Of a DNA stretch of 57,449 nucleotides, positions 40,991 through 43,013 are shown in pieces. Below the pieces are notes generated by a model. That model did not search any database. It saw only the letters and a program-made list of their open reading frames with translations, and was not told the DNA's origin. Origin of the DNA: Bacteroidaceae bacterium (lineage in GTDB: Bacteria; Bacteroidota; Bacteroidia; Bacteroidales; Bacteroidaceae). A program made the translations under genes and the position numbers. The stretch spans positions 1 through 57,449 of the forward strand of contig JAFVSR010000072.1 of the NCBI GenBank assembly GCA_017503645.1, in the 5' to 3' direction. How positions within the stretch are numbered: position 1 is the stretch's first letter; each line of letters opens with the position of its first letter.

Positions 40991-41302
40991 CTATTCGTAA
41001 ACAATCTCCAATCTGTCGCTTACGTGGAACTCCTTCTTCCAACTATCCCAAGATGTATATACAATATGCAGCCCGCGATAGTAGGCCGATAGTGTGATGC
41101 TTTCAAAATCCTCCCATTCGGGCTCGCCATATTCGCTCGATGCTCCGCTTAGTAACAAACAATGTGTTATGTAGTCGAGTTCGTAGAACCCGCCGCCACG
41201 GCAGGCTTCGCCCGGTTTAAGCAATTCACAATGCCTGCTAACCATTCCCAAACGCAGCCTTCCCTCCTTGGTTACGATGAATTTCGGTTGTTTCCTATCC
41301 AA
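40991..41302 (-). CDS. hypothetical protein downstream of ribH
   Basis: 103-aa soluble protein that I do not recognise. It starts MDRKQPKFIVTKEGRLRLGM and has a Glu/Tyr/Trp-rich C-terminal half (YGEPEWEDFESITLSAYYRG, YTSWDSWKKEF) that suggests a small beta-rich fold. It lies 6 nt after ribH on the same strand, so it is co-transcribed. No catalytic motif is visible; codon use matches its neighbours. Confidence 0.75.
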   Translation of the reverse strand: MDRKQPKFIVTKEGRLRLGMVSRHCELLKPGEACRGGGFYELDYITHCLLLSGASSEYGEPEWEDFESITLSAYYRGLHIVYTSWDSWKKEFHVSDRLEIVYE

Positions 41303-41308
41303 ATCTTT

Positions 41309-41791
41309 TTATTTGAATTGGGCCATCATTTGCAATGCGGTAACGGCACACTCGTCGCCTTTGTTGCCCAGGCGGCCACCGCTGCGCTCCTGTGCCTGCA
41401 ACAGGTTGTTTGTGGTTATGAGACCGAATATCACGGGTACATCGTACTCAACATTCAGTTTGGACAACCCTGCGGTAACTCCCTCGCAAATGTAGTCGAA
41501 ATGCGGGGTGTCGCCTCTTATTACGCAGCCAATGGCTATAACGCTGTCATATCTTCCGCTCTTTACCATTTGCGCCGCTCCGAATATCAGTTCGAAACTG
41601 CCGGGCACGCTGCGCAGGTCTATGTCATCCTTGTTCACTCCATTGGCAACAAGAGTCTGCACTGCGCCGTCGCGCAATGCGTATGTTATTTCGTTGTTCC
41701 ACTCGGCATATACTATGCCCACTTTTCTTCCTTTTCCGTCTGCCACTTTGCTTGCATCGTAGGCAGAGAGATTATGCATTTCTGTAGCCAT
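41309..41791 (-). CDS. ribH: 6,7-dimethyl-8-ribityllumazine synthase
   Basis: 160-aa lumazine synthase, the penultimate step of riboflavin synthesis. Motifs: VYAEWNNEIT (substrate tryptophan region), VPGSFELIFGAAQM, GCVIRGDTPHFDYI with the catalytic histidine, and SKLNVEYDVPVIFGLIT. No other rib gene is in the window. The ATG directly abuts the 3' arm of a repeat-built hairpin (41791-41918), which could affect translation. Confidence 0.95.
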   Translation of the reverse strand: MATEMHNLSAYDASKVADGKGRKVGIVYAEWNNEITYALRDGAVQTLVANGVNKDDIDLRSVPGSFELIFGAAQMVKSGRYDSVIAIGCVIRGDTPHFDYICEGVTAGLSKLNVEYDVPVIFGLITTNNLLQAQERSGGRLGNKGDECAVTALQMMAQFK

Positions 41792-41846
41792 AAAATTGTT
41801 TTATAAAGTAATCTACTGCGTTGTGCGTGTTTTTGTTCTCGGTCAT
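41772..41846 (-). CDS. 24-aa candidate upstream ORF overlapping the ribH start
   Basis: ATG at 41846, peptide beginning MTENKNTHNAVDYF and ending KQFYGYRNA, stop at 41772-41774, so it ends inside ribH in another frame. The second repeat copy encodes the same 14-residue start (ATG at 42002, 28 codons, stop at 41916). Translation is unproven; it may merely reflect the repeat sequence. Confidence 0.3.
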   Translation of the reverse strand: MTENKNTHNAVDYFIKQFYGYRNA

Positions 41847-41918
41847 TTAGGCTCAACTAAACTCCCTCGCCCAAAATTCACGCCGGCCTTGTATCTGCAC
41901 TTTATAAAAGCAATTTTA
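41791..41918. repeat. ribH-leader repeat, copy A, with inverted arms
   Basis: Left arm TAAAATTGTTTTATAAAG (41791-41808) pairs with right arm CTTTATAAAAGCAATTTTA (41900-41918) with one bulge. The enclosed 88-nt core (41809-41896) matches copy B at all but one base, while the arms do not match copy B. On the minus strand this is the ribH 5' leader, and the last arm ends at the ribH ATG. Confidence 0.85.
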
Positions 41919-41948
41919 TAGGAGTGCATTAGGTCGTGCTGTTGCCTT

Positions 41949-42071
41949 AAATTGATTAAAAAAGTAATCTACTGCGTTGTGCGTGTTTTTGTTCTCGGTC
42001 ATTTAGGCTCAACTAAACTCCCTTGCCCAAAATTCACGCCGGCCTTGTATCTCCTCTTTTTTAATCAATTT
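41949..42071. repeat. ribH-leader repeat, copy B, with inverted arms
   Basis: Left arm AAATTGATTAAAAAAG (41949-41964) and right arm CTTTTTTAATCAATTT (42056-42071) are perfectly complementary. The core (41965-42052) is the same as in copy A except C to T at 42025. The offset between copies is 156 bp. Confidence 0.85.
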
Positions 42072-42106
42072 TATTTTTAGAGATTCCGGCCTTCTTGCCG
42101 CATTAT

Positions 42107-42160
42107 ATATTAAAAAAGTAATCTACTGCGTTGTTGCTTGCTTCTCTCGTCGGTCATTTA
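42107..42160. repeat. ribH-leader repeat, diverged partial copy C
   Basis: TTAAAAAAGTAATCTACTGCGTTGT begins like copies A and B (given here in two parts: TTAAAAAAGTAATC and TACTGCGTTGT), then diverges to TGCTTGCTTCTCTCG and ends CGGTCATTTA, which again matches. No right arm pairs with it. Fragments of the core (CCGGCCTT) also occur at 42087-42094. Confidence 0.6.
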
Positions 42161-42165
42161 TTACT

Positions 42166-42202
42166 AAAAAAGCAGCCTACGACTTGTCGCAGGCTGCTTT
42201 TT
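42166..42202. terminator. terminator between TPR gene and ribH leader
   Basis: Stem AAAAAGCAGCCT (42166-42177) / AGGCTGCTTTTT (42191-42202) with an inner CGAC/GTCG, giving T-tracts on either strand. It ends the minus-strand TPR transcript, so ribH needs its own promoter within the repeat region. Confidence 0.8.
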
Positions 42203-42220
42203 GTATTGGCTCAACCTACA

Positions 42221-42889
42221 TTATTTAACGCGGTTGATGTATTTGTCGATGTCGGTGGCAAAAGACGATGTGCTGTAGTCGTTCTTAATCTGCTCATACA
42301 GCTTCAAAGCCTTGCTTGCGTTGCCCTGCTGCTCGTATATGTTGCCTGCCTGCAACAGATAGAAGGGGCTGAGGCTGTTGTTGTCGGCCATTTCGGCAGC
42401 CTCTACAAAATATTTGGCAGCGGCATCGGCATCGCCTGTCTGTGCATAGCAGCTGCCAAGTGTACCCATTGCAGCTGGTGCCACAATCTGGTCATCGGCA
42501 TCGAATGCCTCCAACTCGTCGATAGCCTCTTCGTAACGGCCAAGCTGTGCCAACGCCATACCTGCATATGCGTGTGCAAGGTTGCCCGCAGCCGTGCTGC
42601 CATACTCGTCGGCAATCTGCAGGAAACCGAGGTTTACGCCGTCGCCGTCGATGGCCTTCTCAAAATCCTGTGCTGCAAAAAGGCTCTCTGCAATATACAT
42701 AGCCTCGGCTGCCTCTTTCTCCTGGGGCTCTGCTACGTATGTATTATATGCCATACTGCCAACCATAATTATTACTACGGCTGCTATGGCTGCAATAATG
42801 ATGTTTTTGTATTTAAGGATTAACGCCTCTGATTTTGACAATACCTCATCTGCTGCGATGGGTGCGTCTGAATGTGTTTTGTTGCTCAT
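42221..42889 (-). CDS. membrane-anchored tetratricopeptide repeat protein
   Basis: 222-aa protein with a cytoplasmic N-terminus (MSNKTHSDAPIAADEVLSKS), one membrane helix (IIIAAIAAVVIIMVGSMAY, about residues 32-50) and a periplasmic TPR region (LAHAYAGMALAQLGRYEEAI, YAQTGDADAAAKYFVEAAEM, AGNIYEQQGNASKALKLYEQ). The layout resembles YfgM-like periplasmic chaperone partners. The start at 42889 was chosen because the upstream in-frame ATG lies ahead of the -7 box. Function is inferred only at the level of a scaffold. Confidence 0.85.
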   Translation of the reverse strand: MSNKTHSDAPIAADEVLSKSEALILKYKNIIIAAIAAVVIIMVGSMAYNTYVAEPQEKEAAEAMYIAESLFAAQDFEKAIDGDGVNLGFLQIADEYGSTAAGNLAHAYAGMALAQLGRYEEAIDELEAFDADDQIVAPAAMGTLGSCYAQTGDADAAAKYFVEAAEMADNNSLSPFYLLQAGNIYEQQGNASKALKLYEQIKNDYSTSSFATDIDKYINRVK

Positions 42890-42930
42890 AATTATAATGT
42901 TTCTTTTGTTATTATCGCGCAAAATATGCG

Positions 42931-42938
42931 CAAAAATA
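42931..42938 (-). promoter_or_regulatory. -7 box of the TPR gene promoter
   Basis: TATTTTTG followed by C on the minus strand, 42 nt before the ATG at 42889. Confidence 0.5.
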
Positions 42939-43013
42939 ATCAATTTATGTTTAGCTTAAAAATTATAACTGCTTTTTTTGCAAATTAGTGAGTTAATCTT
43001 CTGTTTTTATGCT

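Follow-up and report, generated by a model that had tools for sequence, protein, structure and literature searches.

The ERIC sequence (enterobacterial repetitive intergenic consensus, also IRU or RU-1) entered the literature around 1990 as a repeat of enterobacteria; it is reported to have TA at its ends together with TA duplications, and a 2007 paper states that its transfer mechanism was not known (PMC2229807, PMC2759123). It is given as a 127-bp palindrome with a host range of Enterobacteriaceae and Vibrionaceae (PMC10969869). In Yersinia, ERIC is reported to affect the stability of upstream mRNA via RNase E in an orientation-dependent manner, and the same paper tabulates Correia/NEMIS, RUP and RU-2/YPAL, which are small, form long stem-loops and are non-autonomous like the element reported here (PMC2229807). 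REPs and REPINs resemble the element in being palindromic, extragenic and of high copy number; REPs measure 20-40 bp as against about 130 nt for the element, and CGTC-tagged repeats have been reported in Bacteroidetes (PMC3733652). The BrickBuilt MITE of Porphyromonas gingivalis, from the same order, is also intergenic with inverted-repeat ends but is described as built of tandem 23-nt repeats (PMC4596501). No report of ERIC-like elements in Bacteroidetes was found in the open-access literature.

The window, the whole stretch of 57,449 nucleotides that was analysed, holds two copies of the element (A and B) and part of a third (C) between ribH and an upstream gene, which we read from its sequence as encoding a TPR protein (Table 1). 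We consider it probable that A and B are tandem copies of a dispersed, non-autonomous Bacteroidales palindrome that is a distant relative of ERIC, and whose mobility and effect on RNA we infer. On the minus strand, the stop codon of the upstream gene is followed by the terminator-like hairpin (42202-42167), C, B, A and the ribH ATG. The original prediction had noted near-identical 88-nt cores, which were located at 41809-41896 and 41965-42052 with one mismatch; ungapped alignment of 41793-41908 with 41949-42064 gave 93% over 116 nt. It had also described arms that are unlike between A and B yet paired within each copy, and repeat analysis agreed: in B, arms 41949-41964 and 42056-42071 pair over 16 nt without a mismatch, and in A the arms pair at 83% over 18 nt, with an overlapping 13-nt stretch at 92%. 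Copy A was correctly placed as the ribH 5' leader on the minus strand, with a 3' arm that reaches the ribH ATG (ORF and fold). Copy C, the terminator-like hairpin and the likeness of the stretch beside B to the start of ribH had been overlooked. C lies a few bases away from that hairpin, and no match to it was obtained when the covariance model R1, described below, was run on the window.

Table 1. Features of the ribH upstream region, in positions of the window.
Feature	Positions	Strand	Evidence or remark
Copy A, ERIC-like hairpin	41790..41920	-	R1 98.8 bits; adjoins ribH start codon
Copy B, ERIC-like hairpin	41946..42075	-	R1 106.1 bits
Copy C, 3' half only (minus-strand sense)	42109..42160	-	direct repeats D2, D3; nhmmer E 3.8e-7
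Apex of A, GGGAGTTTA...TAAATGACC, tandem G.A motif as in ERIC	41841..41866	-	pattern match; predicted structures
Apex of B	41997..42022	-	pattern match
Spacer beside B, resembles first ribH codons	41930..41948	-	alignment vs shuffles
Terminator-like hairpin after putative TPR gene	42167..42202	-	inverted repeat I3, 17 nt, 94%
ribH (lumazine synthase), 160 aa	41309..41791	-	ORF; name from the original prediction
Upstream gene, 222 aa from its ATG	42221..42889	-	ORF

Minus-strand folding gave -45.1 kcal/mol for A (z -5.9) and -39.9 kcal/mol for B (z -6.6), and on either strand none of 200 shuffles folded equally well. No Rfam family reached its gathering score over 41300-42950, the best sub-threshold match being Thr_leader (28.6 bits of 55) on the terminator-like hairpin, and none did so on 20 further loci. 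An FMN riboswitch would also occupy the leader of a riboflavin gene; its absence, which had been predicted, was borne out by the lack of any gathering-score match in the region.

The structure was analysed in an alignment (A1) of 38 of the 43 non-redundant copies from the window's genus, five truncated or deleted copies being excluded, and R1 was built from these 38 copies and contains no ERIC. Of the 39 pairs in the consensus structure, 26 are altered on both sides in some copy. Double-change cells numbered 230 (shuffles: mean 80), and pairing fell from 91% to 41-47% once the partners were shifted by one base. Variability is greatest in helix 1, the outer arms. Covariation of the arms had been proposed from two copies; across the 38, each of the seven outer-helix pairs is changed on both sides somewhere, and the outer helix pairs in 79% of cells, where copies with non-pairing arms would have spoken against the proposal. 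Of all parts of the element, the apex varies least, and only one strand can form its tandem G.A pairs; this suggests a folded single strand, of RNA or DNA, as the form being read. The minus strand folds lower in 36 of the 38 copies. Wobble pairs single out no strand: across the 42 pairs that both strands are predicted to form, 52 were G.U and 42 A.C. The alignment shows the inner stem bordered by A and T tracts, and full-length matches measure 126-133 nt.

BLAST of the window's own genome with A and B gave one further copy, and a DNA search matched 25 of 44 genomes of the genus. R1 gave at least 46 matches in the own genome (78 candidates scored) and matched 34 of the 44 genomes of the genus, 15 of 201 in the family, nine of them from the window's genus, and 80 of 344 in the order Bacteroidales, in 60 of 195 genera, own genome included. 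Candidates scored were limited to 78 in the own-genome and genus run, 17 in the family run and 10 per genome in the order run, so the copy counts are lower bounds. The 17 own-genome copies that were read have a single near-identical core in common, which BLAST with A and B had overlooked. The element occurs in more than 10 gene neighbourhoods other than ribH, and orthologous sites were seen both with and without it. Several copies in the genus lie at orthologous intergenic sites, and some form tandem arrays about 125 nt apart; those at G126:C17, G130:C99 and G135:C33 consist of three pieces, and by eye their later copies are without a left arm matching the shared right arms. The original prediction had offered two options: the dispersed structured element was supported, by many loci and covarying arms, and the cis-regulatory RNA of ribH was not.

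Rigid apex patterns were rejected as a survey tool. The pattern GGGAGTTTA...TAAATGACC matched two of 121 family genomes, own included, and GGAGTTTA...TAAATGAC matched 11 of 395 phylum genomes, own included, in a sample where the family was represented by four genomes and the rest of the order by one; this second pattern is at chance level because its reversed control matched 12 genomes. Unlike under these patterns, the element is widespread by the covariance model. With a genus-type element, BLAST found one 25-nt match in phages (E 0.9) and none in plasmids, and with an order-type element none in either; a scan of IMG/VR with a 16-mer gave 11 stretches.

The apex, GGAG-stem-loop-stem-UGAC, is reminiscent of the ERIC primers. 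BLAST of the apex core returned 268 plasmid records, all from Enterobacterales genera, from which eight ERIC-bearing records were taken for a test with R1. Seven of the eight ERICs were matched over the full model and on the expected strand, with 20.1 to 50.3 bits; the eighth was matched at the apex only with 11.1 bits, the best other match being 11.6 bits. Run unfiltered on 94 kb of Pantoea and Vibrio plasmid DNA, R1 gave three matches above 12 bits, all ERIC-type repeats, and the fourth-best match scored 11.8 bits. When R1 was run in fast mode on a Pantoea plasmid and a 4.9-Mb E. coli record, no candidates were returned, though both hold ERICs and the plasmid holds a 50-bit match; either the filter is blind to ERICs or the matches are marginal at genome scale.

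The converse comparison used R2, a covariance model made from ERICs only (14 of 21 gammaproteobacterial loci), on 121 kb around 30 selected Bacteroidaceae loci. It gave 13 matches at E<=1, the best with 37.3 bits (E 2e-7), and all 13 lay on copies of the element: 11 previously called, one (L227) confirmed with R1 and one (L045) by the apex in its sequence. A and B scored 14.7 and 13.3 bits (E 0.10 and 0.25), ranking first and second in 27 kb without reaching significance, and L223 matched both models, with 60.4 bits for R1 and 37.3 bits for R2. The ERIC alignment is predicted to fold into an identical apex, with the same pairs around the tandem G.A. The consensus apex CAGGAGTTTACTTTTGTAAATGACTG, from 29 top-ranking order-wide copies, and the ERIC apex CAGGAGCTTACTTAAGTAAGTGACTG are one exchanged base pair apart outside the loop. 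Plain alignment of the genus consensus with the ERIC consensus scored 79 (500 shuffles: mean 60, sd 5.5, maximum 86), and the order-wide consensus, which derives from top-ranking R1 matches, scored 84 against a shuffle maximum of 77.5.

The element is thus named ERIC-like because length, apex, dispersal and cross-matching fit, while the TA duplication was unseen and the host range lies outside the one reported. Both are imperfect palindromes of similar length (about 127 nt for ERIC), dispersed, intergenic and present in many copies, with the GGAG-stem-loop-stem-UGAC apex and tandem G.A on the same strand. They differ in that the element belongs to another phylum, where it occurs across Bacteroidales, its outer arms vary from locus to locus, it usually adjoins a terminator-like hairpin, and the window copies are weak against the ERIC model. 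That the likeness is convergent, the apex of unrelated long hairpins being favoured by a common host factor or a physical constraint, appears rather unlikely to us: the weak pure-sequence similarity of the genus consensus, the weak R2 scores of A and B and the unseen TA duplication fit such convergence, whereas relatedness is favoured by each model matching the other group over its full length and on the same strand, by copies that both models recognise (L223 among them) and by the similar total length. One of the ERICs, at L287 on a Rahnella plasmid, is flanked by two ABC transporter genes that share their annotated strand.

Inverted termini are present in three further genomes of the order. 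Of 20 copies read there, 13 carry TAG[TA] at the 5' terminus, 18 carry it at the 3' terminus and 12 at both, so that the likeness to ERIC extends in part to the ends. Such termini were not evident in A and B. By eye, no TA target-site duplication was seen at seven sites of the own genome compared with sister genomes. The order-wide copies L325-L344 carry an extra upstream inverted terminus resembling the right end; in G794 the inner left arm is a possible second partner for this terminus, so that two exclusive hairpins could form.

The position relative to genes was determined for 30 of 41 copies, the remaining 11 being at contig ends. The 30 are not all independent, as 11 of them (in the own genome, G116 and G129) belong to a single subtype and are nearly identical. 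Directions refer to the strand that carries the G.A apex. On the 5' side, 24/30 copies had a strong hairpin (<= -12 kcal/mol) within 45 nt, and on the 3' side 0/30 did; of the control windows, 62 of 559 had one. In 25 of 29 cases the closest 3' gene was on the opposite strand, and in 17 of 29 it lay within 35 nt; 5' genes showed no preference of orientation (16 same, 13 opposite). With a simple ORF finder, the element end corresponding to the one at the ribH start codon lay at most 16 nt from a stop codon in 29 of 42 non-ribH loci. From these flank counts, the usual order in the sense of the abutting gene is the stop codon, then the long hairpin and then the terminator. A majority of the compared copies, though not every one, sits in the 3' regions of genes beside a stop codon or a terminator hairpin, and ribH is exceptional in that the element end which elsewhere adjoins a stop codon adjoins a start codon.

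These positions bear on the proposal that the element is a bidirectional intrinsic terminator, spread by recombination at A/T tracts with no transposition. By eye, a terminator-like hairpin takes the place of the element in the sister genome lacking it at each of the seven own-genome sites. At L206, L208, L209 and L212 the own genome has a strong small hairpin as well as the element, and at L203, L215 and L216 it has the element without a strong separate hairpin. Both junctions at L216 lie within A and T tracts. The sister hairpins, the three sites without a separate one, the L216 junctions and the tracts flanking the inner stem are all in keeping with a terminator; however, a separate strong hairpin beside 24 of 30 copies means that termination seems already served, and the order-wide inverted termini start with TAG on both sides in 12 of 20 copies, so we regard this proposal as unlikely. 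At L208, the G116 site resembles a deletion product, and at L215 the element is present in G129 as in the own genome.

ribH was matched in 43 of the 44 genomes of the genus, and 37 of the 43 leaders were examined. At L128, 49 nt of upstream sequence were covered, and the putative TPR gene was not found upstream in L097, L122, L123, L124 and L128. A recognisable element was present in five leaders, a stub in one, arms only in one, and none in 30. The window's subtype is found at ribH in the own genome (A and B), G129 (B), G133 (A) and G122, with core identities to copy A of the window of 100% for G129 B, 96.5% for G133 A and 75.6% for G122. The G157 leader holds a different subtype, interrupted near the apex by roughly 80 nt (L089, 2000-2205), the G146 leader holds arms without a core, and G116, with a RibH 98.75% identical, keeps a stub. 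In the 30 element-free leaders the gap from the upstream stop codon to ribH was 67-96 nt in 22 and 157-173 nt in three, and the upstream gene was not found in the remaining five. By eye, a hairpin and T tract lie between the putative TPR gene and ribH in most leaders examined.

A dedicated cis-regulatory RNA of ribH had been one of the options of the original prediction; in such a switch the hairpin would hide the start codon and open on a signal. The 3' arm of A does pair across the leader up to the AUG, and full copies are kept at ribH in the four genomes with the window's subtype; but with 30 of 37 leaders free of any trace, a stub in so close a sister as G116, the element in more than 10 other gene neighbourhoods, mostly with the corresponding end at a stop codon, and no Rfam family at threshold, such a riboregulator is very unlikely and was rejected on the element's spread among ribH leaders. 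What these leaders record is a repeat's history and not that of a conserved switch, and the position at ribH looks incidental.

The stretch beside B resembles the start of ribH (plus strand, CTGTTGCC in the spacer and CTGTAGCC at ribH), with one of 2000 shuffles scoring as high in the own genome, and by eye the likeness is clearer in G133 and G129. This resemblance suggests that A and B arose by tandem duplication, which seems to have included the first ribH codons, the arms then diverging in a compensated manner. The original argument, by which arms should stay alike after a plain duplication, fails here; duplication with compensated divergence fits better. Chance palindromes or an assembly artefact, for which one could cite the fragmented genomes and the 11 of 41 copies at contig ends, are refuted by orthologous sites in several genomes with compensatory changes and need hardly be entertained.

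Under the favoured reading of a dispersed palindrome related to ERIC, the element would spread as a MITE-like unit mobilised in trans and would be retained in 3' regions, where it is presumably least harmful. Its transcript would fold into a long hairpin, which may protect mRNA ends, lay them open or assist termination. An RNase E-type effect on mRNA is plausible here because the element adjoins stop codons, and by analogy it may plausibly act on mRNA as ERIC does in Yersinia. At ribH, it would have landed in the 5' leader in one group of species and then been duplicated along with the first ribH codons; the pairing of the last arm up to the start codon would be chance, and any effect on ribH a by-product.

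A related family in 60 sampled Bacteroidales genera makes the origin and spread of ERIC and the role of its apex testable, helped by many covarying variants and by recent expansions (as in the own genome, G116 and G794) beside comparable element-free sites. We tentatively extend the comparison to a single superfamily of mobile hairpins of about 130 nt in at least Gammaproteobacteria and Bacteroidales, a possibility somewhat short of an even bet, in which a conserved factor would read the near-invariant, strand-specific G.A apex, since the apex is fixed and the arms covary freely. If this holds, the factor could be a mobilising enzyme acting on the folded single strand or an RNA-binding host protein, ERIC would be no enterobacterial invention, and there would be a first handle on its movement. 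A caution also follows: a hairpin leader known from a single genome, such as that of ribH here, need not regulate the gene behind it.

One copy in the own genome (G000:C29:31278-31405, L121) is cut by the stretch CCCTAAGATGTCATTCCGATGGAGTGCAGCGACGAGGAATCTC, and a copy in G116 (L066) is cut alike; this stretch may be another dispersed repeat.
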